A stretch of DNA of 6,557 bases, from positions 1 to 6,557 of the forward strand of contig JAJRZV010000038.1 in assembly GCA_024275095.1 (NCBI GenBank), given 5' to 3'. The notes beneath the pieces were generated by a model. That model searched no databases and was not told the DNA's origin. It saw only the letters and a list, made by a program, of their open reading frames with translations. Below are positions 1-6,332 of this stretch, piece by piece. This stretch comes from a bacterium. Lineage in GTDB: Bacteria > JAJRZV01. The first letter of the stretch is position 1; each line of letters begins with the position of its first letter. Made by a program: the position numbers and the translations under genes.

Positions 1-1604
1 GGAGCCTTCCCGTTTCCCTCGGGCCTCCTGACCTTGCTCCCCTTGCAACGCAGTGCCCTTCAGGATACTACGATGTGCCCGGTCTTATTAATTTTGTAGG
101 CCTTGATTTTGAGCGCATCAGCGAACTGCTTTCAGATATAGATTCTCAGGTAGCCCAAATTGAAGAGCTCACCAATAACGGCGAGACATTCCAGTTCATA
201 CTCGACGGGGTTAACGATTACCTGCCCATACAGATCAAGGCAAAGGCAAGTGCCCCCATTGAAATTGACGTTGATATTGATCTTCGCATAAAGGGCGAGT
301 TCGACAAGGTGGAACTTGAAGGTGTCGGTGCTGTGGCTTCCGGGGCCAATGCACTGATCAAGCTGGTGCTTTCGCATAACATATGTATTAATCTCAGCGG
401 AATTATTTTCCAGGGTGGACTTGATGAACTCATGACCCTTATGGATAATGATATTGTCAAACTTGTCAGGGTGCTTCCCAAGTATCTGGATGAGAACTTC
501 CTCAAGCTGGAAGATCCCGATATGTTCATGGAAATTCCCACGGATCTGTTTAACCTTGCATCACGTATCCCGGCAGTCCTTGATGTTTTCAGTGAATGTG
601 AAAATGCAACACCCGAAGATCCCTGCGACGATGATGTCTTCTACTTTGAGGATAATCCTGGGTCAGCTACCGATTACATTGTAGTAAACATGGATTACGC
701 AAACTCAAAATTGTGCACCAGCAATTGCGCTTCCGCAGGCAACATGACCAAGGATGATGCAAAAATAGAAGTAATCCCCGGCCTGGTGGATGCTGTTCCT
801 GTGATTAAAGATACGGTAAACAAGCTTGCAGATGAGTTGAGCACGGCGCTCAACGGTGGCGAGGCTTATATTGACATCGGGAAGCACATTAACCCTGTTC
901 TCGGACCCCTCAACTTAGACCTGTGCACGCACTGCCCTCCGGAATACCAGCATGTTATCCCACCGGTTGCACGCATTGCGCTTCACAAGATCTTTCCTGT
1001 GAACGATCCCGCTTCCGCTGTGGGCCTTGGTGCTTTACGGATTGCCGTGGATCCTTCCAGCAACGAGTGGATAGTGGAAGCAGAAGCCCCTGAAGGAACA
1101 ACCTTTCCAACACTTTCTACCGGACCTGCTGATCCCAATTATTCCACCCCGCCTGAATACATCACTCTCGGGGACACCTCTCACTTTGGAGCTTCCATTG
1201 CAAACGATTGCGTTGCACCTGTGTTCTTTACTTCTCCTGCACCTGCGACCAATGCGCGTCCCTACATGAGCGTGGTACACCTCGCCACGGCAAGCATGAT
1301 CCTGTATGTGCAGTCAGAGCTCCCGGACCTCGGAGGAATTATTGAATACAATCCTGCCGAGATTCAGAAGGTTCTCGATGCCTGGTACGGTGTGCCCGCC
1401 AATCAGAAATTGTATCTGGACACCTATCCTTCACAGAGCACCGTGCCCACCTGTCAGCTGCCGGCAGAATATCCCACCAGTGATACCACGGCCTGGGTGT
1501 CGGCTGATCAGTATTTGAACTCCACGGTTCTTGGCGGGGCTCAGCTCTTTTATTTGGTCGAACTGTTGGGTCTTGCGGAGGAAGCTCAACAGCAGGCTCC
1601 CTGA
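1..1604 (+). CDS. Large acidic, cysteine-containing, probably exported protein of unknown function (5' partial)
   Basis: I do not recognise this protein. The frame is open to the left edge: the first full codon is at 3, there is no stop before TGA at 1602-1604, and 533 residues are visible. The GTG at 75 is merely the first start-type codon inside the window and has no convincing Shine-Dalgarno, so I treat the gene as truncated by the window, with the true start and any signal peptide upstream. The visible part is rich in Asp, Glu, Pro, Asn and Thr. It carries about ten cysteines, several in close pairs, including C-x3-C in KLCTSNC (near 712-726) and C-x2-C in LCTHC (924-935). Such a composition suits an extracytoplasmic protein with disulfides. 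The first third alternates hydrophobic and acidic stretches (for example IEIDVDIDLRIKG near 261-297); the middle has helical segments, and the last third is Pro/Thr/Ser-rich. No membrane segment, LPxTG or catalytic signature is evident. It ends in its own terminator, so it is probably transcribed separately from the genes downstream. Confidence 0.75.
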   Translation, partial: SLPVSLGPPDLAPLATQCPSGYYDVPGLINFVGLDFERISELLSDIDSQVAQIEELTNNGETFQFILDGVNDYLPIQIKAKASAPIEIDVDIDLRIKGEFDKVELEGVGAVASGANALIKLVLSHNICINLSGIIFQGGLDELMTLMDNDIVKLVRVLPKYLDENFLKLEDPDMFMEIPTDLFNLASRIPAVLDVFSECENATPEDPCDDDVFYFEDNPGSATDYIVVNMDYANSKLCTSNCASAGNMTKDDAKIEVIPGLVDAVPVIKDTVNKLADELSTALNGGEAYIDIGKHINPVLGPLNLDLCTHCPPEYQHVIPPVARIALHKIFPVNDPASAVGLGALRIAVDPSSNEWIVEAEAPEGTTFPTLSTGPADPNYSTPPEYITLGDTSHFGASIANDCVAPVFFTSPAPATNARPYMSVVHLATASMILYVQSELPDLGGIIEYNPAEIQKVLDAWYGVPANQKLYLDTYPSQSTVPTCQLPAEYPTSDTTAWVSADQYLNSTVLGGAQLFYLVELLGLAEEAQQQAP

Positions 1605-1615
1605 AGTGAGTGAGT

Positions 1616-1652
1616 AAAATCGGGGTGCTCTGGGTAAGAGCGCCCCGATTTT
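1616..1652 (+). terminator. Strong rho-independent terminator
   Basis: The arms AAAATCGGGGTGCTCT (1616-1631) and AGAGCGCCCCGATTTT (1637-1652) pair over 16 positions with a single G-U wobble and a 5-nt loop (GGGTA). The stem has a GC-rich core, and its 3' arm ends in TTTT, giving the U-tract. It starts 12 nt after the stop of the exported-protein gene, so it should end that transcript. Because the 5' arm begins with AAAA, the structure would also terminate on the - strand, although no gene is seen arriving from that side. It sits only 21 nt before the next start codon, which leaves almost no room for a promoter between them. Confidence 0.9.
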
Positions 1653-1661
1653 AAATATCAT

Positions 1662-1668
1662 GGAGGTG
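1662..1668 (+). promoter_or_regulatory. Shine-Dalgarno of the first SCP2-like gene
   Basis: GGAGGTG lies 5 nt before the ATG at 1674 and is a near-perfect match to the anti-Shine-Dalgarno. It selects the ATG at 1674 over the ATG at 1660-1662, which overlaps the motif and is in another frame. Confidence 0.85.
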
Positions 1669-1673
1669 GAGAA

Positions 1674-2099
1674 ATGGGTATTCCGTTTCCGTCTGAAGAA
1701 TGGGTGGCGAAATACAAAGAAGCTGTGAACAGCAATCCCGCGTATAAAGAAGCAGCGAAGGACTGGGTTCACGGTCCTGTATCCCTTATTGTAAAGGCAG
1801 AACCTTCCATTGGATTAAATGAAGATATTGGTGTGTGGCTGGATCTGGAAAAAGGTGTGTGCAAGGATGCGCGTGTTGTGAGTGCTGAAGAGGCGGAGAA
1901 AGCACCTTTTTGCATTACCGGTGAGTATGCCCGGTGGAAGCAGGTGTTGAAAAAAGAACTGGAGCCCGTGCAGGGAATGATGCAGGGTAAACTCAAGCTC
2001 AAGGGAGATCTGCCCACCATCGTTCGGTTTGTGAGGGCGGCTCAGGAGCTGGTGAACAGTGCGACTTTTGTTGATACTGAATTTCTTGATGAGAAATGA
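1674..2099 (+). CDS. SCP2 sterol-binding domain protein (lipid carrier-like), first copy
   Basis: This 141-residue protein is a stand-alone SCP2 (sterol carrier protein 2) domain. That fold holds a hydrophobic tunnel for fatty acyl chains, sterols or other apolar ligands. Visible family features are an amphipathic N-terminal helix (about 8-30), a beta-rich middle with the SLIVKAEP strand (37-44) and the VWLDLEKG strand-turn (54-61), the segment PFCITGEYARW (78-88), and the C-terminal hallmark GKLKLKGD (105-112) followed by a closing helix (113-130). The length fits single-domain bacterial members. There is no signal peptide or membrane segment, so it should be cytoplasmic. It opens the five-gene cluster, and its TGA stop (2097-2099) abuts the Shine-Dalgarno of the dehydrogenase gene, so the two are probably translationally coupled. 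The ligand cannot be read from the sequence; delivery of a hydrophobic substrate to the adjacent dehydrogenase is an inference from position. Confidence 0.85.
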   Translation: MGIPFPSEEWVAKYKEAVNSNPAYKEAAKDWVHGPVSLIVKAEPSIGLNEDIGVWLDLEKGVCKDARVVSAEEAEKAPFCITGEYARWKQVLKKELEPVQGMMQGKLKLKGDLPTIVRFVRAAQELVNSATFVDTEFLDEK

Positions 2100-2105
2100 G
2101 GAGGT
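2100..2105 (+). promoter_or_regulatory. Shine-Dalgarno that selects a TTG start for the dehydrogenase
   Basis: GGAGGT immediately follows the upstream stop codon and lies 7 nt before TTG at 2113. The nearer ATG at 2106 directly abuts the motif, is out of frame and reaches a stop after six codons. TTG at 2113 is therefore the supported start. Confidence 0.8.
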
Positions 2106-2112
2106 ATGACCG

Positions 2113-3285
2113 TTGAAATACTCTGACAGTTTGAACTTTATCTTTCGTATGCCAACGAAGGTGGTGTTTGGCAAAGGGACTGCCAAAGAGGTTCCTCTCG
2201 AGATGAAGGAACTTGGTGTAAGCAGGGCACTGGTGGTGACTGACCGTTTCCTGTACGAAAAGACCGAAATTGTTAATGATATTGTAAAGGCTCTTGGAGA
2301 GGCCTGCGTCGGTGTTTTTGCAGATGTGGAGCCGGATACAGGTGTGGATATTGTGGATTCGGCTTACGCGTTGTTCCAGGAAAAAGGGGCTGATGTCATT
2401 GTAAGTGTCGGAGGGGGAAGTTCCATTGATACTGCCAAGGGCGTACAGATTGCTGCGGGATTGGGTAAAACGCTGAAAGAGATTGGTAGTGGTGGAGTGA
2501 ATTTGCTCAACGCGCCGACTGTACCTCATATTTCGGTACCAACCACAGCTGGTACAGGTAGTGAAGTTACCTACGCAGCAGTCATCAAAGACAGAGAGAA
2601 AAAACAGAAATTGATATTTGCTGACAACTTCATCATTCCGTCTGTTGCTATTCTGGACCCGCTTGTAACTGTGGGTATGCCCAAGTCTCTTACTGCCCAC
2701 ACAGGACTCGATGCTTTCACACATGCAGTTGAAGCTGTTCATTCCAACATGCGGGAGCCCGTTGCAGATGCGCTTGCACTTCACGCCGTCCGATTGATAT
2801 ACGAGTATTTACCTGCGGCACTCAAGGACGGTAATGACATTGTAGCAAGGGGCCAGATGCTCATTGCTGCATGTATTGCTGGTGCAGCTTTTTCCAATGC
2901 GCAGGTGGGCGTGGTACATGCACTCGCGCATTCGGTAGGAGCAAAATTTGGTGTGCCTCATGGGCTTGCGAACGCTATTCTCCTTCCCCATTGCATGCGG
3001 TTTAACGCGAAAAAAGTTGCTGATAGATATGCAGAAATTGGTAAAGCAATGGGGCTGGACCTTCACGGCAAGAGTGATGAGGATGCCTGCGAAGAGACCG
3101 TTAAGGCGATTGAGGATTTTATCCGGAGTACCGGCATTCCCACACGGTTGCGCGATGTGAACGTCCCTCAAGAAAGACTTTCAGAAGCGGCAGAAACAGC
3201 GATTTATGATGGTTCCATAGTAAATAATCCGCGGTTTGCCATGGACCCAAAAATACTGGAGGAGATTTTACAAAATGCCTGGTGA
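2113..3285 (+). CDS. Iron-containing alcohol dehydrogenase (group III)
   Basis: This is a full-length (390-residue) member of the Fe-dependent alcohol dehydrogenase family, which interconverts alcohols with aldehydes or ketones using NAD(P)(H). The N-terminal dinucleotide-binding half contains VVFGKG (17-22), VVTDRF (41-46), and the glycine-rich loop SVGGGSSIDTAKG (98-110). It is followed by SVPTTAGTGSEVT (141-153). The C-terminal helical half carries all expected metal ligands: Asp200 and His204 in HTGLDAFTHAVEA, His269 in VVHALAH, and His283 in GVPHGLANA. Spacings of 4 and 14 residues match FucO-type enzymes, and His273 is also kept. Asp44 after the second strand is the type of residue linked to NAD rather than NADP preference in FucO, so NAD is my guess. 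The enzyme is cytosolic and the substrate unknown. The start is TTG, set by a good Shine-Dalgarno 7 nt upstream. The gene lies between two SCP2-like genes, overlapping the second by 11 nt, which points to a hydrophobic or carrier-delivered substrate (inference). Confidence 0.95.
   Translation: MKYSDSLNFIFRMPTKVVFGKGTAKEVPLEMKELGVSRALVVTDRFLYEKTEIVNDIVKALGEACVGVFADVEPDTGVDIVDSAYALFQEKGADVIVSVGGGSSIDTAKGVQIAAGLGKTLKEIGSGGVNLLNAPTVPHISVPTTAGTGSEVTYAAVIKDREKKQKLIFADNFIIPSVAILDPLVTVGMPKSLTAHTGLDAFTHAVEAVHSNMREPVADALALHAVRLIYEYLPAALKDGNDIVARGQMLIAACIAGAAFSNAQVGVVHALAHSVGAKFGVPHGLANAILLPHCMRFNAKKVADRYAEIGKAMGLDLHGKSDEDACEETVKAIEDFIRSTGIPTRLRDVNVPQERLSEAAETAIYDGSIVNNPRFAMDPKILEEILQNAW
3258..3264 (+). 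promoter_or_regulatory. Shine-Dalgarno inside the dehydrogenase gene, fixing the second SCP2 start
   Basis: GGAGGAG lies within the last codons of the dehydrogenase gene and 10 nt before the ATG at 3275. It favours that ATG over an in-frame ATG 39 nt upstream (3236), which would add thirteen residues (MPWTQKYWRRFYK) read out of frame from conserved dehydrogenase coding sequence. Confidence 0.75.
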
Positions 3286-3712
3286 GAATGGTTTTGTAAA
3301 GATTGACGAAGGGGCCAAGGAAAACGGCCTCGCGCAGATGCTGGGAGATTTAATTTCCCAGAATCTCGAAAGGGTGCCTGCTAAAAAGGGTGTGGCGGAA
3401 AAGATGAACGGGAGTGTTTACATCAATGCATCAGATATCGGTGTCGCTGTTACCATTGAGTTTCGCGGTAGAGACGGGATTTACATTTTTGATGGGAAAC
3501 AGGGGCGTCCTCTTCTGGAAGTGGAGGCTGACAGCATCACTGTAGTGGATATGAGTCGCCTTACATTTGTGGGCGGACTTCTTCCGAACTTTTTCGACGA
3601 TGTGGGACGAAGCATCGTGATTAAAATGCTCAAGAGACACCTCAAGGTAAAGGGGATGATTATTCATCTACCGTTTACCGTTAAGTTACTGAATGTCTTT
3701 TCGGTTATGTAA
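3275..3712 (+). CDS. Small SCP2-like protein, second copy
   Basis: This 145-residue cytosolic-looking protein is most simply read as a divergent SCP2-type lipid-binding domain. It has an N-terminal helix (about 15-33) and a run of beta strands: GSVYINAS (46-53), VAVTIEFRGRDGIYIFDG (57-74) and PLLEVEADSITVVDMSRL (79-96). The last of these corresponds to the SCP2 segment in which a 'value of the domain' strand leads into a helix. A C-terminal region, LKVKGMIIHLPFTVKLLNVF (123-142), matches the family pattern of a KGxxxHLP motif plus hydrophobic closing helix. It is clearly different from the first SCP2-like protein in the cluster, so this is not a recent duplication. The ATG at 3275 is chosen because of its Shine-Dalgarno; the gene overlaps the end of the dehydrogenase gene by 11 nt, so coupled translation is expected. 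The SCP2 call rests on pattern recognition only and is less certain than for the first copy. Confidence 0.7.
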   Translation: MPGENGFVKIDEGAKENGLAQMLGDLISQNLERVPAKKGVAEKMNGSVYINASDIGVAVTIEFRGRDGIYIFDGKQGRPLLEVEADSITVVDMSRLTFVGGLLPNFFDDVGRSIVIKMLKRHLKVKGMIIHLPFTVKLLNVFSVM

Positions 3713-3727
3713 CATTTTCTTGCTCGG

Positions 3728-3753
3728 AAGAGGGAGCCGTGTGGGCCCCCCTT
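3728..3753 (+). promoter_or_regulatory. Hairpin enclosing the DUF2905 ribosome-binding site and start codon
   Basis: The arms AAGAGGGAGCC (3728-3738) and GGCCCCCCTT (3744-3753) can pair in ten positions with one bulged A (3735) and one A-C mismatch. The five-nucleotide loop GTGTG contains the GTG start codon (3739-3741), and the purine-rich Shine-Dalgarno candidate (3726-3736) lies in the 5' arm. Such a fold would hide the initiation site unless ribosomes finishing the upstream gene (stop at 3712, 26 nt away) or another factor open it. It is a hand-drawn structure with no energy calculation. Confidence 0.35.
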
Positions 3754-3966
3754 GAAAACTTCGGCAAAACCCTTATCATTATCGGGTTTGCTATTGCATT
3801 TTTCGGGGTGATACTTTACTTAACAGGGAAAATTCCCTACGTAGGGAGATTACCCGGTGATATTCTCATAAAGAAAAAGAACATGGTGATCTACATTCCC
3901 ATAGCAACATCTCTTCTTATCAGTATTGTTTTGAGTTTGATACTAACACTCTTTTCACGGCGATGA
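3739..3966 (+). CDS. DUF2905 family small two-helix membrane protein
   Basis: This 75-residue protein matches the DUF2905 pattern well. It has a first transmembrane helix (about 10-29), a conserved short loop containing GRLPGDI (36-42) followed by a basic run IKKKN (44-48), and a second transmembrane helix (about 50-72) that begins with the family-typical YIPIATSLLISI and ends in SRR. The family is made of small bacterial inner-membrane proteins of unknown function. With basic residues in the loop and at the C-terminus, topology is hard to settle. The start is GTG at 3739; no in-frame ATG precedes the first helix, and the length is normal for the family. The end overlaps the kinase gene by four nucleotides (ATGA, 3963-3966), so the two proteins are probably made together and may act together at the membrane (inference). 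Confidence 0.85.
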   Translation: MWAPLENFGKTLIIIGFAIAFFGVILYLTGKIPYVGRLPGDILIKKKNMVIYIPIATSLLISIVLSLILTLFSRR

Positions 3967-6332
3967 ATAATTTACTCCCGTATTTTTATCAGGCCCTTGA
4001 CATGGTGAAAGAACTTGTTAAGACTGTGGATCCACTTTTCCTTGTCGCAGGAGCCGCGGGCTTTGCAGGGTTCATAGCAGTTCTTGTTGCGGGAGGTAGA
4101 GGAAAAGGGTCAATCCCACCTGAGGTAGAAGACCTTTACAATGCATACCTGAAAGTGGGAGACCAGGTGAAAGCAGCGGAAGTGCTTGTAAAGTATGGCT
4201 TTGCTGCTCTCGCTTTTGAAATTCTTGAAAGTGCAGGGGCCAGATACGCTATGGCAGACCTGCTCGTGAAAATGGAACGCTTCGAAGAGGCAGGAGCCAT
4301 TTATGAAGATCTGGGCAGGATTACAGAGGCTGCTTCCATGTATCTTAAGGCTGGCAAACCCATGCGCGCGGAAGCGGTGATGAGAGAGGGGGGCAATTAT
4401 CTGGGTGCTGCAATTGTCGCGGAGAAAAGTAACGAACATTATGCCGCTGCACGCAATTATGAAGAAATTGAGCTCTATGCAGCAGCTGCTGAAGCATATT
4501 TTCGCGTAGCAGATAATCTTAAAGCAGCAGAGAACTTCGAGAAAGCATGGGAACGAGCAAGGAGACGGGGAGGAGGAGGATCCTTCACAGGCAGATATTT
4601 TGCCAGAAGAGCTGCTGAAGCTTACGAAAAGGCTGGGGAATTTCGAAGAGCCGCGGAAATGGCCTTGGCAGCAGGTGCAATGGATTTGGCTGCTCGTTTG
4701 AACGAAAAGGCCGGTGAACGAATTCAAGCGGCCAGGTGTTACCTTGAAGCGGGTATGATTGATGATGCTTATCGCATTGCCTCGACGATAAAGGCTGCTG
4801 GTCCGGATGCTCTTGTGCTAATGGGTAGGATATACGAAAGGCATGGAGATTCAAGTGTGGCCGCCTCTTTTTACAAGGAAGCAGGCGACTATGCAAATGC
4901 AGCACGTTTGTACGAACTTTCAGGTGAAAAGTCACTTGCTGCTCAGATGTATGAGAAGCTGGGGCGACTGGACAAGGCCTTTGAGCTGTATGCGCAGGTG
5001 CCTGAGCATGGAAAGGCTGCAGAGGTTGCTGAAAAGTTGGGTCGTTTTGAAGAAGCAGCAGAACATTACGGACGCGCTGGTAACATTATCAAGCAGGCTG
5101 CAAGTCTCGTAAAAGCCGGTCAACTTACGAAAGCGGGCCACCTTCTGGTAGAACAGGGACTCTATGATCGTGCCCTGGCGATACTACAAAAGGTGCCGAA
5201 AGATGACCCTGAATATCCACACGTTCTCGCTGATATGACCCGCATTTTGAAAACCAAAGGAATGGACGAAGCTGCTCGCGAGAAGCTGGAAGATTATATC
5301 TCCACGGCCGGCGTTACAGAGGAAAACGTGACACTTTTTTATTCGTTAGCCTCTATATATGAGGATGTGGAAGATTACAATAAGGCTGCTGAGGTATATC
5401 GAACGATTATTGCCTCGGGTATAAATGCAGATCGTGCGGTGGAGAGGTTGAAAAGCATAGAAGAAATGAGCATGCGGAGGACGGAGCCAGCTCCCAGTGA
5501 TACAAAATCGCTTGAAGTTACTGATACAGAGGAGTTCAAAAAGAAATATCAAATTATAGAAGAGGTGGGAATAGGTGGGATGGGAGTGGTGTATAAAGCA
5601 CGCGATCTTTTCCTCGATCGTCTCGTGGCACTTAAAATTTTGCCCAAGTCGGTAAGAGATAACCCAAAGGCTCAGCGCAATCTTATGAAAGAAGCGAAGG
5701 CCGCGGCTTCGCTCAATCATCCCAACATTGTCACGGTGTATGAAGCGGGGTTTTTGAACAATATCCTTTATATTGCAATGGAATACATTGACGGCGTTAC
5801 TCTCGCCCAATTAAAGGAAGAAGATGGGGTTCTTGAAGGTAAGTTGTTTCTGTACGTATTTGGTCAAGTAACACGGGCCCTTGCATACGCTCATAAAAAT
5901 GGTATTGTCCACGGAGACGTGAAACCGGGAAATATCATGTGGACGGAAAATAAAATCGTCAAAATTACAGATTTTGGTCTTGCGAGAGCACTGGAAGAAC
6001 TCAAGGGCGGCGTAACAACTGTTGCTGGTGGTACGCCTTATTACATGAGCCCCGAGCAGGTGCTGGGTTCCGGGCTGGATCAGAGAAGTGATATATATTC
6101 CCTCGGCGCGACCATGTACGAAATGATAGCGGGCCGGCCTCCTTTTACAGAAGGAGATGTGGGATATCACCACATTCACACCCCTCCAGAGCCGGTGTCG
6201 AAGGTAAAACCTGGTGTCCATCCCGAAATAGAAAGAATTATTATGAAATGTCTTGAGAAGGATCCTGCAAAGCGTTATCAGAATATGGAAGAAATTTTTG
6301 AAGATTTAAAGAAGGTCGTTAAAGGGAAATAG
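3963..6332 (+). CDS. Membrane-anchored helical-repeat scaffold with C-terminal Ser/Thr protein kinase domain
   Basis: This 789-residue protein has a short N-terminal stretch, one transmembrane helix (about 23-44) and then GGRGKG. By the positive-inside rule that places the rest in the cytoplasm. Residues 54-412 are a helical solenoid with a 13-residue period. About 413-495 look like one or two more conventional TPRs, 500-528 form a polar linker, and 529-785 are a Hanks-type kinase. Kinase motifs are the glycine loop GIGGMGVVYKA (536-546), Lys558 in VALKIL, the probable helix-C Glu577, the catalytic loop HGDVKPGN (650-657, Asp652 present), DFG (670-672), GGTPYYMSPEQ (689-699) and SDIYSLG (709-715). 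All catalytic residues are present, but the HRD arginine is Gly, making it a non-RD kinase. Thr685, Thr686 and Thr691 lie in the activation segment. Bacterial kinases more often carry the kinase N-terminal to a membrane helix; here the order is reversed. It would phosphorylate Ser/Thr on unknown partners recruited by the solenoid. It starts with ATG overlapping the DUF2905 stop and ends the cluster. Confidence 0.93.
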   Translation: MNNLLPYFYQALDMVKELVKTVDPLFLVAGAAGFAGFIAVLVAGGRGKGSIPPEVEDLYNAYLKVGDQVKAAEVLVKYGFAALAFEILESAGARYAMADLLVKMERFEEAGAIYEDLGRITEAASMYLKAGKPMRAEAVMREGGNYLGAAIVAEKSNEHYAAARNYEEIELYAAAAEAYFRVADNLKAAENFEKAWERARRRGGGGSFTGRYFARRAAEAYEKAGEFRRAAEMALAAGAMDLAARLNEKAGERIQAARCYLEAGMIDDAYRIASTIKAAGPDALVLMGRIYERHGDSSVAASFYKEAGDYANAARLYELSGEKSLAAQMYEKLGRLDKAFELYAQVPEHGKAAEVAEKLGRFEEAAEHYGRAGNIIKQAASLVKAGQLTKAGHLLVEQGLYDRALAILQKVPKDDPEYPHVLADMTRILKTKGMDEAAREKLEDYISTAGVTEENVTLFYSLASIYEDVEDYNKAAEVYRTIIASGINADRAVERLKSIEEMSMRRTEPAPSDTKSLEVTDTEEFKKKYQIIEEVGIGGMGVVYKARDLFLDRLVALKILPKSVRDNPKAQRNLMKEAKAAASLNHPNIVTVYEAGFLNNILYIAMEYIDGVTLAQLKEEDGVLEGKLFLYVFGQVTRALAYAHKNGIVHGDVKPGNIMWTENKIVKITDFGLARALEELKGGVTTVAGGTPYYMSPEQVLGSGLDQRSDIYSLGATMYEMIAGRPPFTEGDVGYHHIHTPPEPVSKVKPGVHPEIERIIMKCLEKDPAKRYQNMEEIFEDLKKVVKGK
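4122..5198 (+). repeat. Array of about 26 coding units with an exact 13-residue (39-nt) period
   Basis: Within the kinase protein, residues 54-196 divide into 11 consecutive 13-residue units with no gap. Residues 213-277 give 5 more, and 283-412 give 10. The only interruptions are a 16-residue Arg/Gly-rich insert (197-212) and a 5-residue slip (278-282). The unit pattern is an acidic or basic residue at 1, often an aromatic or aliphatic at 2, Ala-Ala at 5-6, Tyr at 9 in many units, Ala or Leu at 12, and Gly at 13. Examples are DYANAARLYELSG, EKSLAAQMYEKLG and RFEEAAEHYGRAG. Each unit looks like one short helix closed by a glycine turn like the one between helices A and B of a TPR. The conservation is at protein level: codons differ between units, so this is an old repeat rather than a recent DNA duplication. 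Confidence 0.85.

Follow-up and report, generated by a model that had tools for sequence, protein, structure and literature searches.

A helical solenoid with a 13-residue repeat in a family of bacterial Ser/Thr protein kinases

The window analysed here, a 6,557-nucleotide stretch of bacterial DNA, carries the gene for a 789-amino-acid protein that on balance we take to be a membrane-anchored, probably active Ser/Thr kinase, whose cytoplasmic 26-helix solenoid would act as a docking or regulatory scaffold. The repeat unit of the solenoid appears to be a single 10-residue helix followed by a 3-residue turn. Up to 11 such units follow one another unbroken in this protein, and 51 do so in another bacterial protein (L075).

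Architecture of the protein

The kinase gene (positions 3963-6332 of the window, forward strand, as are all parts of the protein given here) is an ORF with a match to Pfam Pkinase (4e-54) and with homologues along most of its length. A single transmembrane helix (residues ~24-45, 4032-4097) is indicated by a hydropathy of 2.45 at residue 25 and by a modelled helix at residues 24-45. Positive charges lie directly after this helix (R46, K48), which on sequence grounds suggests that both the array and the kinase are cytoplasmic. The family can do without a membrane anchor, since some relatives show no transmembrane helix (L044, L045, L046, L048 and L127).

The repeat array occupies residues 54-412 (4122-5198) and is divided into three blocks. 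Block 1 is made up of 11 unbroken 13-residue units (residues 54-196, 4122-4550; autocorrelation, unit profile and model). It is followed by the first phase break (4551-4598), where the model has a Gly-rich linker, RRRGGGGSFTG, and longer helices at residues 185-201 and 208-223. Block 2 comprises four clear units and a weak fifth (residues 213-277, 4599-4793; unit profile and model), and block 3 contains 10 unbroken units (residues 283-412, 4809-5198; autocorrelation, unit profile and model). Canonical TPR-type hairpins at residues 418-431/435-446 and 456-468/472-485, with a closing helix at 489-505, come next (5199-5477; Pfam, profile and model).

The kinase domain (residues 528-785, 5544-6317; Pfam and NCBIfam) is of the Hanks type, with the catalytic residues Lys558, Glu577, Asp652, Asn657 and Asp670 all present and these positions invariant in 12 homologues. 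The HRD motif reads HGD in the window kinase, a replacement that may alter regulation of the kinase. The protein does not belong with the PknB/Stk1 PASTA kinases: it scored 316 bits against an NCBIfam cut-off of 450, over the kinase domain only, and no PASTA domain was found with Pfam.

The 13-residue period

Autocorrelation of residues 54-412, scored with BLOSUM62 against 1000 shuffles, gave z-scores of 9.98 at lag 13, 9.25 at lag 26 and 4.9 at lag 39, and of -2.4 at lag 34. The period of 13 residues and about 26 units given for these residues in a preliminary description was therefore borne out. The runs of 11, 5 and 10 units proposed there were, but for one weak unit, recovered independently with a 13-column unit profile trained on homologues, the window protein being left out. 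This profile found 25 array units: 11 in a run that begins at residue 54, 4 in one that begins at residue 213, where the fifth unit is weak, and 10 in one that begins at residue 283. The whole arm scored 277 versus at most 14 in shuffles. In the proposed phase (11+5+10 = 26 units), Ala is found at position 5 in 22/26 units, Tyr, Phe or Leu at position 9 in 20/26 and Gly at position 13 in 18/26. However, the Ala-Ala pair at positions 5-6, described as present almost throughout, occurs in 15/26, for which that wording was too strong.

The hairpin is the usual unit in which the repeats of helical proteins are counted, and the two helices of a canonical TPR differ. Within block 1, odd-even units are as alike as units of the same parity (7.00 vs 6.94), and no alternation of A and B helices was seen among its units. 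Nor were DNA-level repeats found among the unit copies of the array. Recent tandem duplication was thus rejected, and the copies point instead to an old periodicity at the protein level.

Predicted structure of the array

AlphaFold was given the whole protein on an alignment of 12 homologues, and the array alone with 19. The array alone was modelled as 26 helices with a pLDDT of 96.1 and a pTM of 0.83. The modelled helices are mostly of 10 residues with 3-residue turns, and their starts are 13 residues apart within each block. In the whole-protein model, helices of block 1 start at residues 68, 81, 94, 107, 120, 133, 146, 159, 172 and 185, those of block 3 start at residues 297, 310, 323, 336, 349, 362, 375, 388 and 401, and the phase breaks coincide with longer helices at 185-201, 208-223 and 281-294. 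The models agree with the earlier proposal of one short helix per unit and a 26-residue hairpin per two units, and no standard 34-residue TPR hairpin was modelled within the array. The long, regular superhelix proposed along with these is a possible form of the array. The pTM of the whole-protein model was 0.43, so that the mutual placing of array and kinase is not fixed by the model, and this was counted against our preferred explanation.

That the protein is simply an ordinary bacterial TPR kinase, with a 13-residue period that is a degenerate 34-residue TPR, seems unlikely. TPR families do score above their Pfam cut-offs in the window protein, and the Foldseek matches are solenoids of the TPR superfamily. 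Canonical hairpins also follow the array: residues 413-505 include a TPR_7 match (1.7e-10, residues 460-481) and two modelled hairpins, and the C-terminal part of a longer profile matches consensus TPR structures. The departure from 34-residue TPRs claimed previously therefore holds for the array, but the canonical hairpins at 418-505 had been overlooked. Moreover, canonical TPR proteins (L077, L080-L082) score with the unit profile as pairs of units about 34 residues apart, which makes the unit recognisably TPR-like and suggests that it is a 13-residue short form of the TPR helix. Residues 54-412 are nevertheless not canonical TPRs, given the negative lag-34 score and the 13-residue spacing and equal 3-residue turns of the modelled helices, and lag-34 z does not exceed 1 in 68 homologues either. 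In addition, a profile of the array alone matches the arms of intraflagellar transport (IFT) proteins first and consensus TPRs far more weakly. As to repeat length, the degenerate-TPR reading is thus largely refuted.

Homologues and conservation of the array

Relatives of the kinase are present in distant bacterial genomes. A locus search with the kinase C-lobe signature [GAP]YHHxH[TS][PA]P returned 80 loci, with titles mostly from Deltaproteobacteria/Myxococcota and single cases from Nitrospirae, Planctomycetota and unplaced bacteria. The 13-residue phase is kept in 68 array proteins (lag-13 z 6.0-13.1, lag-34 z <=1.0), among which the commonest layouts are 11+6+9, 11+5+10, 10+6+9 and 11+5+9, and the first phase break is found at the same place in most homologues. 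The layout, being mostly 11+5/6+9/10, points to a fixed 26-helix domain. Identity per 13 residues is 4.7 for the same unit across proteins versus 2.9 for different units within one protein, which argues that the array is old and evolves as a fixed domain. Among the family members the window protein is divergent: for only 11 of its units does the unit of the same index rank among the best three of 25.

The preliminary description had foreseen homologues that keep the phase while differing in unit number. The phase is indeed kept, but a growing or shrinking array inside the kinase family was rejected for most members in view of the near-constant layout and the unit-specific similarity. Some kinases have only the last block of 8-10 units, beside TPRs (L072, L100, L131, L137 and L155), so the long arm is dispensable in those members of the clade. 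Differences in unit number are mainly those between one architecture and another (8-10 to 51 units) and those seen in these last-block-only kinases. No long runs of units occur in L050 and L051, which are distant homologues of the kinase; L050 gives lags of 35 and 34 instead of 13 and serves as a control. A search for the array in plasmids and phages gave no match.

The unit in other proteins

The 13-residue unit is also found in proteins of other kinds. In L075 (G104:C2, ORF 232-3480 on the reverse strand), residues 22-684 form 51 consecutive units with no indel (lag-13 z 16.4). A J-domain and TPRs come after them, and there is no kinase domain. When relatives of this 51-unit protein were sought in 58 genomes, only L075 itself was found. 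A second protein, L073 (G140:C764, ORF from 1417 on the forward strand), has 19 units, a beta-propeller and 11 further units, and is a coat-like combination in a bacterium. Arrays of 8-9 units are joined to a cyclic-nucleotide-binding domain in L071 and L074. A rather doubtful reading of this distribution is that the 13-residue single-helix repeat is a separate class, widespread among bacteria, lacking a Pfam model of its own and used as a modular scaffold with kinases, J-domains, cNMP-binding domains and beta-propellers, and that the IFT arms descended from it.

Genomic neighbourhood

YebC, RuvA/B/C, LpxC and PilZ were named by sequence recognition and by tblastn between loci, rather than by a family scan. 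In 36 loci a RuvB gene on the same strand precedes the relative, usually by no more than a few hundred bases. LpxC is immediately downstream in 42 loci, and PilZ often stands beyond it on the opposite strand. Across loci L086-L160, together with L038, L049 and L060, the conserved orders are ruvA-ruvB-kinase and, in Myxococcota/Deltaproteobacteria MAGs, ruvB-kinase-lpxC(-PilZ opposite). This ruvAB/lpxC neighbourhood of the relatives had not been noted in the preliminary description.

In the window, the start of the kinase gene is overlapped by the stop of a gene for a small DUF2905 membrane protein (ATGA; 3739-3966, forward strand, Pfam DUF2905 1.8e-20). Two further ORFs in the window have no Pfam or NCBIfam match. 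One (3281-3712) encodes a 143-aa protein and is flanked by an iron-type alcohol dehydrogenase and by DUF2905; the other (75-1604, 509 aa) may be truncated by the contig end and represent the C-terminal portion of a larger protein. At the threshold used, the window genome contains exactly two arrays. The second copy (L049, contig C133) has the order yebC-ruvC-ruvA-ruvB-kinase. In genome G043, this order is extended by DUF2905 and a second array protein (L038). L009 shares a 148-base overlap, at 99%, with the last gene of L038 and is therefore taken as the remainder of that gene. L009 is the nearest homologue of the window kinase and, as in the window, is directly preceded by DUF2905. As the two also group together (support 92/85), the window kinase is most likely a DUF2905-linked paralogue of the ruvAB-linked kinase.

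These linkages might mean that the kinase regulates its neighbours, either RuvAB (recombination) or LpxC (lipopolysaccharide synthesis). Besides the recurrence of both genes and the shared yebC-ruvC-ruvA-ruvB-kinase order, there is a precedent for LpxC, which in E. coli is controlled by LapB, a membrane-anchored TPR protein. However, linkage alone is no proof of regulation, and several family members are located elsewhere, away from ruvAB/lpxC. For the window copy, neither ruvAB nor lpxC is in view on a contig that ends 225 bases downstream of the kinase, and lpxC of the window genome is on another contig. Regulation of either neighbour is thus improbable.

Proposed role

The most plausible reading of a conserved, unit-specific 26-helix scaffold beside a kinase is a surface for docking or regulation by a partner protein. 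In the scaffold reading that we favour, the N-terminal transmembrane helix would anchor the protein and lead into the cytoplasmic alpha-solenoid (blocks of 11, 5 and 10), then into the two ordinary TPR hairpins and the kinase. Close to the membrane, the solenoid would capture the partner and present it to the kinase; alternatively, the TPR hairpins may pass the signal of partner binding on to the kinase. Each compact unit would be a helix of the TPR superfamily cut down to 13 residues and nearly equivalent to its neighbours, with no distinct A/B pair. Since a kinase with this fixed 26-helix domain is kept across several phyla, often beside ruvAB and lpxC, it is probably an important signalling protein, as yet undescribed, in Myxococcota and related lineages. 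A literature search, covering sources other than subscription journals, returned neither a comparable helical repeat of 13 or 26 residues nor a ruvB-lpxC-linked kinase. The array could also guide the design of highly compact solenoids and give a bacterial counterpart with which the arms of ciliary transport proteins can be compared.

Comparison with known systems

Against solved sequences, the array-only profile (TPRs excluded) matches IFT172 best (1.3e-24), then IFT144, IFT140, IFT122, WDR35 and WDR19, followed by alpha-SNAP. Lag 13 is the strongest lag in the stretches of IFT172, IFT144 and IFT122 tested (z 3.1, 5.9 and 3.2), although the period is weaker there than in the array. The likeness to IFT proteins pointed out previously is supported by these matches, and the 13-residue unit has a precedent in IFT arms and is not wholly new. 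The array differs in having as many as 11 consecutive units and a kinase, whereas IFT runs are of at most 4 units in proteins that carry beta-propellers. A combined reading, in which the array shares an ancestor with the alpha-solenoid arms of IFT and coat proteins and serves at the membrane as a coat-like polymer or a scaffold for assembly, is very improbable despite these matches and the beta-propeller flanked by a related array in L073: arrays of the same repeat unit can match each other by convergence, IFT runs are short, the Pfam scan found no propeller in the window protein, and the TM-scores to IFT chains in Foldseek are 0.21-0.32. The window protein is not itself an IFT or coat protein with a beta-propeller ahead of the solenoid, as it has no propeller and matches in the solenoid part only. 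The planctomycete membrane-coat-like proteins, bacterial alpha-solenoids that have been likened to eukaryotic coats, differ in the same respect, in that an N-terminal beta-propeller is required (PMC2799638).

The best Foldseek rows are TPR-superfamily solenoids with TM-scores of at most 0.32, and the top VIA rows are also TPR-superfamily chains. Among many VIA alignments, Sec17/alpha-SNAP superposes at 2.4 A over 157 residues with a Z of 11.7, a value to be read in the light of Z below about 13 being common among helical repeats by chance. Alpha-SNAP/Sec17 thus resembles the array both in this superposition and in sequence (array profile and Pfam SNAP), but has no kinase and another function, and its helices are not known to have an exact 13-residue period. 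Canonical TPRs (Pfam TPR clan) share antiparallel helices and small residues at packing positions with the array. They differ in having 17 residues per helix rather than 13 and in their 34-residue period, and neighbouring units in block 1 of the array are not separable as A and B helices.

Ser/Thr kinases containing TPRs are well known in bacteria (PMC1262709, PMC11032199), and the protein described here shares with them a Hanks-type kinase, a solenoid that in the present case may belong to the TPR superfamily and, often, a membrane anchor. In a survey of such kinases, however, the TPRs are for the most part C-terminal and periplasmic (PMC11032199), whereas here a solenoid of 13-residue units follows the membrane helix and precedes a kinase at the C-terminus.
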